Positions 17,001-27,600 of a stretch of 64,000 nt of DNA are shown here, piece after piece. Below the pieces are notes generated by a model. The model searched no databases, was not told where the DNA came from, and saw only the letters and a program-made list of their open reading frames with translations. The first letter of the stretch is position 1, and every line of letters begins with the position of its first letter. This DNA is from Capsaspora owczarzaki ATCC 30864 (lineage: Eukaryota > Opisthokonta > Filasterea), in the NCBI RefSeq assembly GCF_000151315.2, contig NW_011887294.1:316266-380265 (forward strand), written 5' to 3'. Made by a program: the position numbers and the translations under genes.

Positions 17001-17992
17001 CGTCGTCGTGAAAGGAGGAAGAATAACCAGGACTGACTCAGACCCAAACTCAAACTGAAACTGGATATTGAAGGTGAAGTTGAATTTGAATCGGGTGGTA
17101 GATTCTAGAGGGTTGCGACGATGGAGTGCACGAATTGGTAAATTTGAGGACGAGCAGATTGGGAGCTGCTCGACAACGATAAGTGCGCTTTCTGCGTGTA
17201 CACACTTTGTTCAAAAACGGAAGATGACTCAAACAGGTAGCAGAGTGGATTGAGTGCTTGGAATGGAAAGGGGCTGATCCCGCAATCTGAGTTTGAGCAG
17301 ATTTTGGTGTGTTTGCTTTACAATGTTACACTTTCCGCATCCATACACGCACTCGTATAGTACGAGCAACCACCATTTCGCGGGCTAAACAGCGGCTGTT
17401 TCGGTGAACTCCGTCGTGACATCAGTGAAGCGCAGAAAGGATGAACGCGCACCGAACAAAACCGCAGCACAAACGAGTTGGTTTTTGTTGCATTGTTACG
17501 TCGCTCTCTGAAGTTGCAGCCAAGTTCCCCCTTCCATCCAGCGAGCAGATCCAGCTTGCATGTGCAACAAACACCTCGCAGTATGCTCCCCCAGCTCATC
17601 CAACTCGCAACCAGCAGTCACCAAAAAAACATCAACAATTTGCCTCAAATTTTGCAACTGTCAAAAAATTTGCTCGAATTGTGCCTGAACTGCAAACCAG
17701 TCCAACGTTAGGGATTCTCGCTCCCCTTTGTCCTTTTTTGCTTTGTTCTGTCCCTGCACTGTGTGAATTCTTCCAATCCTCAGAACTCGAACAAGAACAG
17801 GATCTGAAACAAAGCACTCTTCCATATTTTTTCTACAATCTTGCTTTTTGTTTTGAGAAGCCAGAATTTTTTTTTTTTTTTTTTTTTTTCTGTTTCCGCT
17901 TCAGTTCTCTCATCTCTTGTGATCGACCCCCTTGTTCCACCAACCCGGTCCCCCACCCTCGACCCTTCGTCTTCGTCTTCGTGTCCAGAGCC
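17001..17992. other. Divergent intergenic region, T-rich near the downstream start
   Basis: This lies between the starts of the DUF1295 gene (-) and the TKL-LIM kinase gene (+). A run of about 22 T occurs near 17869-17889. The frame of the kinase is open upstream from 17441, but that stretch does not look like protein of any known family. It is probably 5' UTR or intron plus promoter. Confidence 0.5.
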
Positions 17993-20900
17993 ATGTCGCT
18001 GAGCAGCATCCAGCACCTGCTGATCGACTTTGGCGAGGTCAAGCTGGAAAAGTCCATCGGCAAGGGCTCTTTTGGCGTTGTCTGGCGAGGGCTCTACCGC
18101 GGCCAGGTCGTCGCCGCCAAGCAGATGGCCCCCGAGGAAGGCGCCAACTTTAACAACAAGGAGGCTGACAAGTACACGGAGCGCGAAATCCTCATGCTCG
18201 GGTACGCACTTCCTCTTGAATGACTGAATCCAAAGCTGGGTTCTTTTGCCATAGTGTATGGATTGAGGGTTGCGGTTGAGGTGTCTCCGCCGCCTTCGGA
18301 CGTTGGCTTTTTGGCCACACGAGTGCTGTGCGCTTCAGAGGACTGGTCCCAGTGGGGCTTTGGTTTCGCTGCAGCCGGGGGCGCCGTCCAAATCTCAAAA
18401 ATGGGAGTTTGTTGCAGCGAACCAAAAGCAAACTCTTTTATTTTTTTTTTTATTTTTTTATTTTTTTTTATTTTTTTATTTTTTTCTATTTTTCTATTTT
18501 TATTTGTTTTTGGTTTACCCGACAACCGGTGTCTCGTCATCATGCTGATGATTTGGTCGTTTCATCAGTCATTCAGTCAGCATCTGTAATGCTGCTATTA
18601 TTGTAGCGATGCGTCGCTCGGTGTGGTGAAGAGTGCGCTTTGGATTGGGCTCTGTTTCGTCCATCCAAATGCGGATGTTGCGAGTCAACCACACCGTTAG
18701 CTTCACAGCATGACTCTGTTCGGAAGAATCACACATTGTTCAAACACGAACGGCATCGAGAAGATTTAAAAAATCATGGACCAAGCGGATGGCGATTCAA
18801 TTCTCACCTCACAATTCGTTTCTACATTTTCGATCTGACAGGTCGGTCCAACACCCAAACGTCGTCAAGTTTATTGGTGCGGCATTTCACAACAAGACTT
18901 ATTACCTTCTGACCGAGTTTATCGACGGTGGCGATCTTCACGCCTTGATGGAGGACCACGACGTCCCATGGCCTCAGCGCTTGATTATTGCGATCGATGC
19001 CGCTATTCCGTTGGCACACTTGCACTCGCAAAGAATGATCCAGTACGTTCGTATCTTGCGAATGGGTGTCGTTGAAGCGAACATGGATGAGGAGGGATTT
19101 TGTTCCATTCCTTTGAGGATTGCTCACCCCGAAACCATCCCCCATCGTGTGCGTCACAGCCGAGATGTCAAAACTGAAAATTATCTGATGACGAGTAAAT
19201 GGCGAGCGAAAATGTGCGACTTTGGCTTTTCTCGGCATTTGGACTTGAGCAAGCAAATGACAATGTGTGGAACGGTAAGCGGGGACTTTTGTCGGTCGAC
19301 CTTGTCGCGTTGCTGGCTTCGCCTTGTCTTGGTTGGTAATTTTCTGTTTCCGGCCAATTGATCGCAAAGCACTCACAAACGTCTGTCTCGGCACGACCAC
19401 AATCAAACACACACACACAAACAAAAAAAAAAAAAAAACAGGATTGGACACTCGCCCCCGAAATCATGTTTTGCATCCCCTACGATGAAAAGGTGGATGT
19501 CTTTAGCTACGGAATGGTACTGTGCGAACTCATTAGCCGTGAGCACAGCTCTACGTTCGAGCGCGTCATTCCTGGGTTTGGTATTGCAAGCAGCGAGATT
19601 TACGACCGCGCAAATGGAGGCTGCCCTGAGCCGCTCATCCAGCTCACCGTCGACTGCGTCGAAGACGAGCCGTCAAAACGACCCTCCATGGAGGCTGTGG
19701 TGGAGCGCCTCAAACGCTTGTATTTTGATTTTGTGGGTTCGGAATACGAGCCTCTCACGTCCGAACCCGTGTCGGCACCTGCTGCTGCTGCTGCTGCCGC
19801 TACAGTGGAGGTGTGCACGCCGCCTCTGACTCCTCCGTCTTCGTCGTCGATTACGGTGATTGAGGTTCCAACAACGTTGGTGGCTGAGCCTGCAATCCCG
19901 CCCGCAGTCGAGCCCGCAGCTCCAGTCGCTCCCGTCGCTCTAAACGCTGCTGCTGCTGCTGCATCCGAACCGGCCTCCCCAGCCCGTCCGTCCAATGAGG
20001 TCACGCCTTCTGTTCCCCACTCTCCTCCATCGAGCGGGCCGGAGGCTCCAGATTCGCCGCGCGCTCCCATTCTGGTCAAGCCTGACGAATCCATCGCTTT
20101 GGACGACGCTTTGGACGAGGCCATCGGCGTGCTTGACGTCTCGATGATTGAACGGGAGCAAGCATCGCGCCGGCTGCCCGGAAGCGCCCGCGCATCGCCG
20201 GCTGGGTCGCGTCTGTTTGAGATTTCGCATCGCCGGACTGCCAGCCGAGAAAACTCGTTTGGCCTGTCCACCAGTCCCGTTCCTTCCAGTCCCCATCCCA
20301 ACGAGCTTGTTCCTCCAGAGCCTGGTTCTGCATTTGTTGCCTCGCACACGACGGTTGAACCCGAATTGGCACCCGCCGTTGAGCCAGCACAACTGCCCTC
20401 CCCGGCGGCGTCGCCAGTGTCTCCGGCTTCCGTCCCCGTCAAATCGCCCCCTTCCGCTCGTCACCCGTCTGCAATCGTGATGCCTGCGCGTGCGCCCGAT
20501 GCGGTTGTGGCTGCATCATCCTCAGCAGCTGCTGCCCCCGCTCCAACCGTGCCCGCTCCTGCGGCCACGAGGCCAGTCCATGTCGGTACACCGCAGCCCA
20601 ACTCTTCAATCCGGTCGCCATCCTTCCGCAGTCTGGCAACGGCAGTTGGCGACTCGGCTGCCGCATCATCTGTTCATCCGTCCAATCTAGCCGCTGCCGG
20701 CGACGCTGCGGAGGCTCCTGGCGTCTCTGTCACGGAATCGGGTGTCATCTTCCCTTCCGTCAAAGACCGTCGCAATTCATTCTACAGCGCAGCACAGAGC
20801 AGCTTTTCCTCGCCAACGCCACAAAAGCCTGCACCGACCACTCCTTCCAAGCGATTGTCCATGGTCTTCAATCCGCAGCAAGCCGCCACTTCGACTACGC

Positions 20901-23268
20901 CAGCAACGCAGCAGCCTGTCGAAGAGTTTACCCCGACGGCCGGTTCCGTGCGCCAAGCCGTGTCGTCCTGGCGTGCCTCCTCGACGAGCAACACCCCGTC
21001 CGCAGCATCTCCCACCGTCTCTGGCTCGCGCACCACCGCCTCGTGGCGTGCCAACTCTATCGCGTCCACTACGCCTTCCACGCCGACCGGAGGAGCAGCA
21101 GCAGCCCGTGCATCTTGGCGTGCATCCCCCTCCGTCAGCAATGCCTCTGCCATCTCCAAGCCTGCAGCGCCAGAGGCTCCGGTTGCCGAAGCGCCAGAGA
21201 GCCCCGTTGAGAGCGTTCGATCGCGTGCCGCCTCTTGGGTGAACTCGACCAACGTGCCGCGGGCTTCCCCATCGCGTCCGAATGGTCCGAATGGGTCTGC
21301 TGCTTTGCGTGCTGCCAACGCCATCAACGCGGCTGCTGCCGCCCCTTCTGCTCCTGCCGCTACTTCTACTTCTGCGCCGCAGGTTAGCTCTCCAAGCGCG
21401 TCAACCACACCCAAAACGTCAACTCCCGCTGCCACTCCTGCTGCCTCTGTGGCAACACCCGCCGCCTCGTCGCCAGCGACTTCAACATTCACTCCAATCA
21501 AGCGCAAGGACGAGCTGTACGACGCTGCCGAGCGCGACATTCTCTCCGCGCTGGACGATTTCGATCGTCTGATTCCGAACAAGTCGGCGCAGGTCACTGC
21601 TACCGTCGCAGCACCTGCAGCAGCGGCCGCTGCCGCTCCGTCCATCAAGGCCACAGCGGCTGCCAACCCTTCTCTGGGAAGGCAGTGGTCGGTGCAATCT
21701 GCCACGCAAGCGGCTGCCGCTGCTGCCAACACGCCAAATCGCCCCGCCGGTCTCATCACCTCGTCGTATGTCAGTCCGCATGCCCGCGCTGCAGGATCTC
21801 CACTGCCATCGTCGCCCAGCCCTGCCACATCGTCCACTCAATTGCACAAGCCAGTCCAGCCGGCGGCAGCAACATCAGTTCCTTCAACTCCGGTTGGCAC
21901 TCCCTCTGCTCCCGCCTTCCCGACCCCAAAGTCTCCGGCTGCAGCTCCTGCTGGAGACACTTCTGCGTCAGCGTCTACAGAGGCCGACGATGTCGTCCCA
22001 GAGCTGTCGGCCACCGCGATGGCCGCATTCACAGCTCTGGAGTCTCGGTCCGGGTCTTCCTTGAGTCGCACACCGAGCAGCTCGGGCACCGGTGTTTCTG
22101 TCAAGCAATCGCTTTCGCGCTCGTCCTCGAACATGGACAGTGCCGACAAGCCCTCCGCCCAGATTCGTGGCCAATGCGGTGGTTGCGGCAAGGACATCAC
22201 AATGGCCGAGCGCGCCCTTTCGGCAGCAGGCCGCAAGTGGCATCATGATCACTTTGTGTGCGCCCATTGCCAGAAGCCGCTGGGAAAGACGCCGTTCTTC
22301 GAGTTGAATGGCAAGGTCTACTGCAGCGAAGACTACGAGTCGCTCTTCTTGCCCAGATGCCACGTCTGTCAGAAGCCGCAGGCAGGCAACTATGTCTCTG
22401 CCCTCGGCAAAATCTGGTGCCCCGAGCACCTGACATGTGGTGTCTGCAAGCAAGTCCTCTCGTCCTTTGTCGAGCACAATGGCCAGCCGCTGTGCCAGAA
22501 GCACTATGAAGAGCGCAATCAACGGATTTGCAAGCTGTGCACTTTGCCGATTAGCTCGGGCGCGCTCACCACAGGGCAAGCGTACTACCATCGCCAGTGC
22601 CTAGTTTGCAAGGTATAGAGAAATGGCGATCTTTCCAGCAGGGAGAATGTGCAGAGCTTGCTTGTTTGCTGTTTTCGTCTTTTTTTTTTTTTTCTTGCTT
22701 TTTTTTTTTTTTTTTTTTTGCTTTTTGCTTTTTGGCTTTGGGTTCTGTCGCTTGAGTGTGGGCGTTTGATGGTTGCTAACCAGCCCCATGGACACCGTTT
22801 GTAGGTTTGCAGCACCGCTCTCGACTCGCAGCCTCATTTTGTCGTCGATGGCGCGATTCTGTGCCAAGAGCATTATGCCAAGCGCTCTGGCTCGCTTACA
22901 TGCCACGGTTGTCAAAAACCACTTGTCGACACGTATGTTGACGCGATGGAGAAGCGATGGCATCCGACCTGCCTTGTGTGCACGGTAAGAGACTTGCATT
23001 TTGGACGATGGAACGATGCAATGACCGCAGCTTGTCAATGACGTTTCTCACCTTCACTGTTGTTTTGCCTCTTCTGCGCGGCGCTTAGACCTGTCGCTTG
23101 CCTTTCGAGGGTGGCTACTATCCCCACGCCGGAATGCCGTACTGCAAGAAAGACTTTTTCCGTCTGAAGAATTTGCTGTGTGGCTCTTGCGACACGCCCA
23201 TCACGGACGTGTACGAGGAAGTGAACGGCAAGCGTCTGCATGTGACTTGCGCCGCCAAGTTGAAGTAG
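17993..23268 (+). CDS. TKL-type protein kinase fused to C-terminal LIM domains
   Basis: Six exons: 17993-18201, 18842-19042, 19160-19274, 19442-22612, 22805-22984 and 23089-23268; 1351 aa. The kinase domain is at about 16-275: GKGSFGVV (23-30), Lys43, HRDVKTEN (137-144), DFG (157-159) and WTLAPEI. HRDVKxxN rather than HRDLAAR indicates a Ser/Thr kinase of the TKL group. A linker of about 800 residues rich in Ala, Pro and Ser follows. From about 1087 come four complete LIM double zinc fingers and a fifth that has only its first finger (CGSC...HVTC, then AAKLK and stop). The LIM array resembles paxillin-type domains that bind adhesion and actin proteins. LIM kinases have the opposite order, so this is not a LIMK orthologue. 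Cytoskeletal or adhesion signalling is inferred. Confidence 0.9.
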
Positions 23269-23512
23269 TGTCATTGTTTCGACCATGTATCTGTGTACAT
23301 GGGGGAAACCTCTGTGTCCCTTCCTTTTGTCTATCGCTTGGTTCCGCCACACCATGTTACCATGTATGTTGTTGAAGTTGTCAGTGTGTGCAGCGTTACC
23401 TCGTCAAATCATCAGTTAGTCAAATCCGACCTTTCGTTCAGTCACTTTTGTTGTTTTCACTCGTTCGCTTGTTGGTTGTTGGACGAAAAACATCGACTTT
23501 GCTGAGTTCACC

Positions 23513-24499
23513 ATGGATCCAATAGACCATGAGATGGCTCTTGATACGCATCCACCAAACGCGGACGCAGATCTGAGCAATCTGAGCGAGCACGACTCGG
23601 ACGACGATGACTCACTCGACCTGGCCTCGCGCGATGCCACTCGACCCGCAGGACGATCCGACGAGCAGCGCCAAGCAGCACGTAACGCCAGACTCGCGCT
23701 GCACAGCCAGTACGCACAGGCGGACGCGCGGCCCAAGCGATTCGGCGAGCTGCAACAACCGGCTGGATCATCCGAGCCCAGCAGCGCCACACCGCACTCT
23801 GGTGTCGAGTTTCGCAAGGATGGCAATGGCGATAGCGCCATGTCTTTACAGAGTCGGCAGGGTGGTGGTGGTGGTGCTGGTGTTGGTGCTGGTGTTGGAC
23901 CAGGTGGTGTTTCACATGGTACAGCGCACCAACCGTCATCGTCATCACCATCGCCATCAACACACAGGCAACAGACAAATGCAATGGTATTACATCCACA
24001 GGACGAGTCGTCTCGGATGGAGGTGGACGACGTGGATGGCGAGATTTCGTCTTCCACTCACGAACGCCTCGACAACGACGACGACGACAATAACGATGAC
24101 GAGTATCGCGATGTGCTCGTTCGCGCCATGCGCGTCTTATTTACACGGGAGCGGCTGCATCGCGAAGTCGAGGAGGTCAGTGCTGGGATTCTAAGATCTC
24201 GAAAGCCGATTTTGACAAGTTGGCTGTTTACCGAATTTGTTGACTTGTTGATGTTTGCGTTTGGTTTATTGTTTTGTGGGCGGTTATTCTAGGCCGCATC
24301 TTCTCAACTCACAGAGCAACACGAGCAGCAAATACGAGCCAGGCAGCGACAGCAGGACGATGAAGACGCCTACTTTGATTCAGAGAGTCCATCCGAAAGT
24401 GTAACAACCGCATTTACGACCGATGAAATCGTGCCCCCTCCAATCGACGGTAGCAGCGAAGAGGTTGATTATGATGATGATTGTTTTGTCAATGGATAG
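23513..24499 (+). CDS. Acidic low-complexity protein of unknown function
   Basis: Two exons, 23513-24175 and 24293-24499, joined in phase 0; 289 aa. The sequence is rich in Asp, Glu, Ser and Gly, with a Gly-Ala-Val run and an acidic NDDDDNNDD stretch. The only ordered-looking part is a helix across the exon junction (EYRDVLVRAMRVLFTRERLHREVEE then QLTEQHEQQIRARQ-like sequence), likely a short coiled coil. No family was recognised. Its 3' end is 154 bases from the convergent giant coiled-coil gene. Confidence 0.65.
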
Positions 24500-24653
24500 T
24501 TCCACGAGTACAACTTTCAACGCCCGTGGTAAATGCGTTTTGCATGGTGGAAATCGTTCAGGGGAAATGTTCAACTTTTTTTGTTTCATGTACAACACAT
24601 CACACAACATCACACAAACGAGAGACATGGAAAGAAACATTTACAAAATCAAT

Positions 24654-27600
24654 TCAAGACATGAAGGGAAACGGGGTGGCAAAGGGCTGGCGTGCAGGCT
24701 GATTCAGCAACCAGGATGCTGGGTGGGTTTTCGCCGAAGGTGCGTTCATGCTGGAATAGGCGGTCTGCAGGTCGTGCATCTTGCGATTGGCAGCGTGTTG
24801 ATACTTGCTGCCGCCGTAGAACAGACGGCGTGCAGCCATGACAGCCAACACACCCTTGCGGAAACGACGGAGCGGAGTCAGCATTTGGCGATGGATGGCC
24901 GGCGGCATGACACTGCCGGTGCAGACAGCCGTGACTTGATCGACCTCGCGGTCGGCCTGGTCGATAATGTTGAGGCAAAGGCTTTCAATGTGAGCGAGGC
25001 GCGTGTTTTCAACGGCCAAATACCGCTTTTGGAAGGTGAGTTTTTGCACCTGAGAGCTCAGCTCTTGGCATTGGGCAGCCAGCATTTCCACAGTGCCGTT
25101 GCCTGCAGCAGCGGGGAGTTGCTGAGTCGCATTGTGCATTTGGTAGTGCGTCGCCCAGGGCACAAGCGGAGAGTTGGCAGTGCTGTTTCGTGCGGTCGTC
25201 AGGGCGGTGAGAACCGAATCACGCTGTTGCGCCCAAGACTGCCTGGCGCGGGACTCGCGGCGACGCTCGCTCTCGCGCTGATCGCGTTCGGAAGCCAGAG
25301 TAGTCTCCATCGAGTGTACAGTGGACTGCAGCTCTGCAATCTTGCTCTTGTACGTGTCGACGCGACCAGCGTACTTTTGTTGAACCTGGCCCAAGAAGAG
25401 GTGCAAGGCTTGCATCCAGTTGCTGTTGACAATGCTGCCGGCTTCTCCGTGCTGCAGCATCAGCGCAGGGAGGCCATTCGCTCGTGCGCCATTGCTTCCG
25501 ACAGATGCAACAATCCATGCATGAATTTCACCGACGGAAGGCTGCGCAACGGGTGCTGCCAGGGCAAACTGCTGCTGCATTTCGTGCGTACGCAACTGCT
25601 GCTGCAGCTCGTTGCATCGCACGTTGGCCGCCTCCAATTCGACCTGCAGCCGCTCAATCTTGTCCATGGCCGAGGTCAAGGCGGACTGCAACGTCGCTTG
25701 GGCGGCCAGAGCAGCCTGGCGATCCTCGGCGTGACGAGCCTCCATGCGACGACGCTCCTCAAGCATGTCGGCCCGCATGGTTGTCATTCGGCCTTCCGCG
25801 GCGCCAGTGGCCGTGTTGGCGGCATCAAGTCGCAGCTGGAGCAGCTGGAGTTGGTGGATGGCCGCTTGGTGCTCGCGCGCCGCCTCTCCGGCATCGTGCT
25901 GACTGGTGTCCAACAGCCGCTGAGCGCGCTCTGCACTCGCCGACAAGGTCGCATTGAGCGCTGCAAGACGATCACGCTCAGCCGAGACCAGCAACAACTC
26001 GCGATTGACGCGGGTCATTTCCGCTTGCGACACTGCTGCCGCTGCGGCTTGGGCAGAGCTTGCCGCGTGTGCGGCGTTGGTGGCCGCAGAGACAATGGCT
26101 GCCGTAGCATCGCTCGACATGGTTGCGGTTGTCGGAATGAACTGAGCAGCAGGAGCAGCAGCGTGCGACTGTTGGTGGGTCAGCATTTCGCGTGCAATCA
26201 CGCCGGTGACGGTCGTGGTGAATGAGGTAAAGCAGTCAGAAACCATTCGCACAATTTCTTGGGGCGATGCGCTTGCAGGGATGGGCAGGGCGACAGCTGG
26301 AGCCGAAACTGGTGGCTGGGTCGAGGCGACGCGCGCAGCATGCGCCTGCTCCGACATGGTCTGTTGAGCGGAGGCCGCGGCGGACGCAGCTTTGGCGGCA
26401 TCCGCGGCAGCAGCGGCGATGCTTGCTTGGCCAGCTGCAACGGCAGACGACACAACCTGGGCCATGTGGGTCTGCAGTTCTTGCTGCTGGTGGTAGTGCT
26501 GGTACTCTTGCACATGGCGGAGAACGGGACTCAGTTGCGAGGTCAGCTCCGAGCGGATGAGCTGGGAAATTGCCTCAATGGACGGACCAGGAGCAGGTGC
26601 TGGCATCACAACGGCGGGAGGAGGAGCAGCAACAGCAGCAGCAGCAGCAGCCGCAGGTGCAGGAGTGGGGCTCGAGGCAGCAAGGCGTGCTTGCACCGTG
26701 GAGGCAATTGTCAACTCGTTTTGCAAGCGCTGGTGATCGCGATAGAGTTTGTCCATCTCGGCACGCAGGGTACGCTCGGTCGAGACTTGCTCGTTGAGTT
26801 GCGTCTTGGCACTCTGCAGATCAAACGTGCAGGACTGCAGCTGAGCCTTGAGAAGAGACACGTCGCGTTCGTGCTGCGAGCTGGCACGCTCGTAAGACAG
26901 GCGCTCTTCGTTCTGAGTCTGCGTGGCGCGAGTGCTGTCACTAGCGACCTGCTTGAGCTGGACTTGCAATTCCATGCGCTGCTGACGCTCTTGCATCAGC
27001 TGAGCATCCAACTTCTGCTTGTCCTCATCCAGGGCTTCAAGACGGCTGGTCTGTTGGGCCACTCGCGCTTGCATCTGCTGGACTTCAGCAACAGCGACGC
27101 TCTTTGCCGACTCGAGGACGCCGAGGTTGGTCTGCAGGCTGGAGACCTGGCTCTGGAGATTGGCAATGGTGGACTGGAGCGCGTTGACTTGCCCGGCGCT
27201 CGTCTCACGTGCGTTTCCATTCTCGGCAGCTACTGCTGTGAGCTGGACGACTTGAGCCTGTGCCGCACTCAGCCACGCTTCAGTTTGCTTGAGCTTGCCG
27301 CTCAGCTCCTGGGCGTCGGCGAGCGCGCTCTTTCCAGACGCAGTCATCGCAACCGCACTGGTCTCGAGCGAAGCGACTTGAGCTTGCAAGGCAGCGACAG
27401 TTTGCTGCAAGTGTTGCACGAGCGCGTTCTTTTCACCAGCGTCCTTGTCAAGACGAGCACACTCTTGCTCGAGCTCGTCCTTGTACAGACGCTCCTCTTC
27501 CAAGAGATTGCCGTTGACAGTGGCTGTCTCGCGTTCTGCGTCAAGTTCACTGCTCACAAGAGCCAACTTGGCCTGAAGCGCGGCAAGCTGCTCAGCGCCC

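Follow-up and report, generated by a model that had tools for sequence, protein, structure and literature searches.

Two LIM domains and then a PDZ domain precede the TKL kinase of LIMK1 and LIMK2, and the LIMK-related TKL kinases TESK1 and TESK2 have the kinase at the front and no known LIMs. Paxillin, in human and in Capsaspora owczarzaki, bears a C-terminal LIM array behind a long non-LIM region with LD motifs, and carries no enzyme. Koch 2012 (PMC3305314; this and the other papers are cited as far as their available text goes) reported three Capsaspora proteins combining LIMs with a kinase, namely one true LIMK and two atypical LIM-kinases (Co_06515T0 and Co_08582T0), which lack a PDZ and carry more than two LIMs, in single gene models. 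For the atypical proteins, the available text of that paper states neither the order of the domains nor the class of the kinase, and mentions no linker or half LIM. Here we describe a gene in a 64,000-nucleotide stretch of C. owczarzaki ATCC 30864 (contig NW_011887294.1, positions 316,266 to 380,265, forward strand; hereafter the window, whose numbering is used unless a contig is named) that, like the atypical pair, encodes a kinase and more than two LIMs without a PDZ. In contrast to LIMK, its four and a half LIMs follow the kinase. We read the protein as a TKL kinase with intact catalytic residues that a long linker connects to a paxillin-like LIM array at the C-terminus, in a fusion that would be separate from LIMK; judged from its sequence, this reading has a probability of roughly 0.55. 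Because two genes of this kind came to light in the genome, this one and a LIM-WNK gene, it is very probably one of the two atypical LIM-kinases, and the protein has very probably existed in print since 2012. The locus tags CAOG_08582 and CAOG_06515 had no match in the papers available to us, and the layout of this LIM-kinase fusion variant, described nowhere in the literature available to us, appears to be new.

Comparisons were made with this genome (27.46 Mb, 29 contigs), PDB chains and papers. The gene spans 17993-23268 on the + strand and comprises six exons and five GT-AG introns, with 1351 codons and a stop (Table 1). Exon 4 is covered by an uninterrupted frame (19340-22618), and because this exon carries the kinase C-lobe, the linker, LIM1, LIM2 and finger 1 of LIM3, the kinase and the LIMs share a common reading frame. 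By Pfam, the 1351-residue protein has a kinase at the front (aa 18-263; Pkinase 149 bits, PK_Tyr_Ser-Thr 140.4 bits) and LIM in four stretches (aa 1087-1314; 165.3 bits), with no PDZ domain at E 0.001. The catalytic set is complete, comprising GKGSFG (23-28), K43, HRD (137-139), N144, DFG (157-159) and TLAPE (178-182); the domain is a TKL-type kinase that keeps its full catalytic set. All eight ligand positions are present in each of LIM1 to LIM4, and the LIMs are separated by spacers of 8, 8, 9 and 8 residues (8, 8 and 8 in the paxillin of the same genome). The original prediction had given the start, the stop, introns 3 and 4 and a length of 1351 residues, and had described an intact N-terminal TKL-type kinase with Lys43, HRDVKTEN and DFG, an Ala/Pro/Ser linker of about 800 residues (here measured at 811), four full LIMs with a fifth cut after its first finger, and the kinase-first, LIM-last order. 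All of this was borne out, the kinase and LIMs lying in one frame, and introns 1, 2 and 5 are added.

Paxillin is the best match of the LIM array both in the PDB (90.2 bits, followed by PINCH at 77.3) and in the same genome (92.4 bits, followed by a RasGAP-cyclase at 81.7 and a Rap-GAP protein at 80.3). In a tree drawn from LIMs complete within a single frame (37 sequences; some malformed or overlapping ones were trimmed or not taken), LIM1 joined its LIM1 counterparts in paxillin, Rap-GAP and cyclase at 92/87, and that of the cyclase at 98/83. The array is probably best called paxillin-like, not of the paxillin class, with its register uncertain. The kinase found its best PDB matches in LIMK1 (130.8 bits) and LIMK2 (112.4 bits), the third scoring 108.3, and its best match in the same genome besides itself was the LIMK (141.5 bits; next 93.4); for scale, that LIMK and human LIMK1 score 285 bits. 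In kinase trees of 31 and then 22 rows (9 of the 31 omitted as partial or long), the kinase was the sister of LIMK at 93/90 and 91/92, neither starred, and was kept out of the clade of human LIMK1/2 and the Capsaspora LIMK at 100/99 and 100/97. A further tree and the topology tests used the 31 rows and an unverified TESK1 row, with 6 of the 32 omitted; there, LIMK and TESK1 grouped at 100/100 without this kinase. By the approximately unbiased test (p-AU), forcing the kinase beside the Capsaspora LIMK was disfavoured (0.0144), as was forcing it with the Capsaspora and human LIMKs to the exclusion of TESK1 (0.0265). Given the placement of the kinase outside the LIMK clade in the trees and the presence of an ordinary LIMK in the genome, a separate fusion is a better reading of the protein than an inverted LIMK, and the 'reversed LIM-kinase' of the original prediction, which suggests a LIMK with its parts swapped, is not supported in that wording. 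LISK-like kinases without LIMs exist elsewhere, given the nine Dictyostelium LISK kinases that form their own subfamily (PMC1420674) and two Phytophthora kinases near LISK that lack the LIMs (PMC3019232).

Several results weigh against this reading. With the unverified TESK1 row and TNNI3K rows included, the best tree no longer has the kinase beside LIMK/TESK, placing it in an unresolved fork with LIMK/TESK1, TNNI3K and IRAK-like kinases; neither sisterhood to LIMK and TESK (p-AU 0.377) nor pairing with TNNI3K (p-AU 0.154) was rejected. The LIM tree has 51 columns, 3 of 36 branches starred and a bootstrap that had not settled. A tree of LIM1-LIM2 pairs gives the paxillin grouping at 88/74, with the pairs C6:344k and C1:2412k also inside it. 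Aligned in register, the array and paxillin score 165 bits over 238 columns, and shifted alignments reach 123 bits over 178 and 120 over 199, which is much the same score per column. For LIM1-2 alone the scores are 104 with paxillin LIM1-2, 99.4 with LIM2-3 and 90.5 with LIM3-4. LIM3 and LIM4 are without clear kin. The linker contains no strict LD motif and one relaxed, a count reached in 244 of 2000 shuffles. The paxillin-like array of the original prediction is supported as the best match of the LIMs; its register with paxillin is weak per column.

If the protein is a fusion that arose apart from LIMK, a paxillin-type LIM tail would have become attached to a TKL kinase. As the original prediction proposed, the LIM array would bring the protein to sites of adhesion or to actin structures, where the linker would give the kinase reach to its substrates. 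HRD-x-K is a motif of Ser/Thr specificity, and the kinase, which has it, may act on these residues. Thr171 and Arg162 align with LIMK1 Thr508 and Arg483, and phosphorylation of Thr171 would switch the kinase on; such an activation-loop switch is plausible from the alignment.

A special case of this fusion, which we consider unlikely, is a force-sensing kinase whose tandem LIMs bind tensed actin and bring the kinase with them. Four LIMs do stand in tandem with short spacers, and at the position of the Phe common to tensed-actin LIMs, which we take from the FHL2 sequence to lie in finger 2, LIM1 and LIM2 have Phe, LIM4 has Tyr, and LIM3 has His with a Phe adjacent. The strict Phe is present in two of the four LIMs, compared with four of four in the Capsaspora paxillin, and the half LIM is without a second finger to bear it. 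The corresponding residues are F80, F141, F200 and F263 in FHL2 (PMC11310055) and F512 and F575 in LIMD1 (PMC12863670), where the effects of Phe mutations may, by the caution given in the latter paper, reflect folding.

Although LIMK is the top match in both the PDB and the same genome, and the protein shares with LIMK1, LIMK2 and the Capsaspora LIMK a TKL kinase, LIMs and the activation-loop Thr (together with the Arg483 counterpart), it is improbable that it is a true LIMK family member with its LIMs moved from front to back that still phosphorylates cofilin Ser3. Such a substrate probably exists, as the best cofilin match in the genome reads A-S-G-V-K-V after a splice acceptor (by eye; ATG exon not located), so that Ser3 is probably present. 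Against LIMK membership are the placement of the kinase outside the LIMK clade, the two disfavoured topologies, the lack of a PDZ and the LIMs themselves, which fall apart from LIM2 of the Capsaspora LIMK in the weak LIM tree. In LIMK1, Tyr514, Asp549 and Asp551 grip cofilin Lys112 (PMC6835155). Counting from Thr508, this kinase has Trp for Tyr514 and, in two alignments, Ser or a gap for Asp549 and a gap or Thr for Asp551, whereas the Capsaspora LIMK retains the Tyr and both Asp. Because the two cofilin-gripping Asp are missing, cofilin is not a safe substrate call and, on these residues, would be possible but not favoured. The spacing from DVFS to the Arg of RPS is likewise 61 in this kinase and 63 in three LIMKs (62 in DLK and MLK1), and an alphaF-alphaG insertion common with LIMK was rejected on these values.

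Slightly less credible again is a PINCH-like array, with the kinase working in a complex of the ILK-PINCH type. Paxillin outscores PINCH, second in the PDB, there and in the same genome, and LIM1 falls with paxillin-type LIM1s; it is LIM2 that pairs with human PINCH1 LIM5 (92/85, in the 51-column tree with few resolved forks), and the PINCH-like pair C6:344k lies within the weak group of LIM1-2. With five residues after the half LIM, there is no room for the twelve-residue PINCH motif (PMC3305314). That kinase and LIMs belong to two adjacent genes with separate transcripts is very improbable, since the C-lobe, linker and LIM1-LIM2 lie in one uninterrupted frame and Koch 2012 has kinase and LIMs in single Capsaspora gene models (PMC3305314), of which this gene is very probably one.

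By itself, the terminal half LIM scores 14 bits to Pfam LIM (positions 1-26), under the cut-off of 22.9, whereas LIM4 scores 58 bits. LIM3 and LIM4 are interrupted at a matching phase-0 site, one codon past the fifth ligand. Because the last exon terminates one residue beyond this intron position, and the fifth zinc ligand position of the half LIM is Lys, the array looks like one cut at an exon boundary, by which the last LIM would have lost its second finger. A matching phase-0 intron between fingers occurs in LIM3 of the cyclase and in one LIM of the LIM-WNK gene, and an in-frame insert in the translation of the Rap-GAP gene suggests a similar one. Paxillin of the same genome has no intron at this place in any of its four LIMs, and LIM1 of the LIMK seems, by eye, to be split at another. 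Half LIMs may occur elsewhere in the genome. The original prediction had named an extra exon with a complete fifth LIM, placing the gene in a known family, as one finding that would count against it. The three + frames of 23100-27000 contain no completing finger of the form C-x2-C...C-x2-C/D/H, and of 165 GT-AG splices that skip the stop, 6 give a Cys pattern, each with Asn or Lys where the fifth ligand should be Cys; scans of two of these six tails gave no LIM match. In the Rap-GAP-adjacent array (L052, ~2240-2420), an apparent internal first finger lies directly before another LIM.

The linker (20.8% Ala, 17.3% Ser, 14.3% Pro) is probably disordered. It has no in-frame stop, compared with a mean of 17.7 and a minimum of 5 in 2000 base shuffles, and relative to shuffles it is enriched in PxxP (31 versus a mean of 16.4) and SP/TP (44 versus 29.3). 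No RSxSxP or EVH1-like motifs were found above chance in the linker, and RxxS/T sites (12 versus a mean of 9.6) were not notable. Four copies of [AS]SW[RV][AN][SN] are present, a number reached in 0 of 2000 shuffles; this result is description only, because the motif had been spotted before it was put to the test. SWRA-like motifs hold four of the five tryptophans of the linker. The N-terminus is not certain, because upstream from the presumed start the frame runs without a stop as far as 17429 and includes an in-frame ATG at position 17441. The segment 17429-17992 looks like a 5' untranslated region and contains a poly-F run encoded by a T tract.

Table 1. Features of the kinase-LIM gene, in window coordinates
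Feature	Position	Strand	Description
Exon 1	17993-18201	+	ATG, glycine loop GKGSFG, Lys43, alpha-C
Intron 1	18202-18841		GT-AG
Exon 2	18842-19042	+	Kinase, ending in the split His codon of HRD
Intron 2	19043-19159		GT-AG
Exon 3	19160-19274	+	HRDVKTEN loop, DFG, activation-loop Thr171
Intron 3	19275-19441		GT-AG
Exon 4	19442-22612	+	Kinase C-lobe from DWTLAPE, entire linker, LIM1, LIM2, LIM3 finger 1
Linker	19730-22162	+	aa 272-1082, 811 residues, Ala/Ser/Pro-rich
[AS]SW[RV][AN][SN] motif, four copies	20963-21247	+	Trp 685, 710, 734, 774; 24-40 residues apart
LIM1	22175-22333	+	aa 1087-1139
LIM2	22358-22504	+	aa 1148-1196
LIM3	22529-22873	+	aa 1205-1255, broken between fingers by intron 4
Intron 4	22613-22804		GT-AG, splits LIM3 between fingers
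Exon 5	22805-22984	+	180 nt; LIM3 finger 2 and LIM4 finger 1
LIM4	22901-23154	+	aa 1265-1314, broken at the corresponding place by intron 5
Intron 5	22985-23088		GT-AG, splits LIM4 at the LIM3-equivalent place
Exon 6	23089-23268	+	180 nt including stop; LIM4 finger 2 and finger 1 of fifth LIM
Terminal half LIM	23179-23250	+	aa 1323-1346, finger 1 only (C-x2-C...H-x2-C), then AAKLK and stop

Elsewhere in the genome, the LIMK (contig C10, L049) has two LIM stretches, PDZ matches under the Pfam cut-off and a kinase, and the paxillin-like protein (C11:951776-952474, L053) has LD-like repeats by eye. Compared with paxillin, the protein described here has a kinase, an extra half LIM and no LD motif above chance. 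A Rap-GAP frame adjoins a paxillin-like LIM frame with four LIM stretches by Pfam (L052; the two frames considered separately), and a RasGAP-cyclase on the minus strand (C1:854500-862000, L051) has RasGAP, two class III cyclase and three LIM stretches in one open frame. Both have a signalling enzyme in front and paxillin-like LIMs behind, LIM1s that group with LIM1 of this protein and a similar between-finger intron, but the enzymes differ. We surveyed 26 LIM clusters and 136 kinase places, both lower bounds, for kinase-LIM pairs, and five same-strand pairs lay within 12 kb: this gene, LIMK, LIM-WNK, a pair on C9 and C5:1700159/1706139. Between the C9 kinase and LIMs lies a putative ribosomal P0-like frame. 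The LIM-WNK gene (C6:434000-443500, L050/L076; exons partly modelled) has LIMs, then a kinase resembling WNK and a WNK CCTL2/OSR1_C domain, and is presumed to be a WNK from the CCTL2 domain match and from sequence motifs. Koch 2012 describes a Capsaspora set like the LIMK, paxillin-like and Rap-GAP genes given here, in which the Rap-GAP/LIM gene fits the PXN-like Co_06505T0 (PMC3305314).

A tentative extension, which we hold to be doubtful, is that in this lineage the paxillin-type LIM tail worked as an interchangeable address label, carried at the rear of at least three unrelated signalling enzymes (TKL kinase, Rap-GAP and RasGAP-cyclase). LIM-directed kinases would then have had two or more origins, with LIMK representing just one, and these would have arisen alongside animal adhesion signalling or earlier. 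Coupling of a kinase to an adhesion-type LIM array would in that case have been invented more than once among unicellular organisms closely related to animals, leaving the LIMK-cofilin design as one solution among several. With an ordinary LIMK and an oppositely ordered, LIM-tailed kinase in one cell, a direct comparison of targeting and substrate choice would be possible.

About 800 bases beyond the end of the window lies a TNNI3K-like kinase (C3:381059-381532, L014) that scores 231 bits to human TNNI3K, and a cofilin gene is found ~2 kb past it on the opposite strand.

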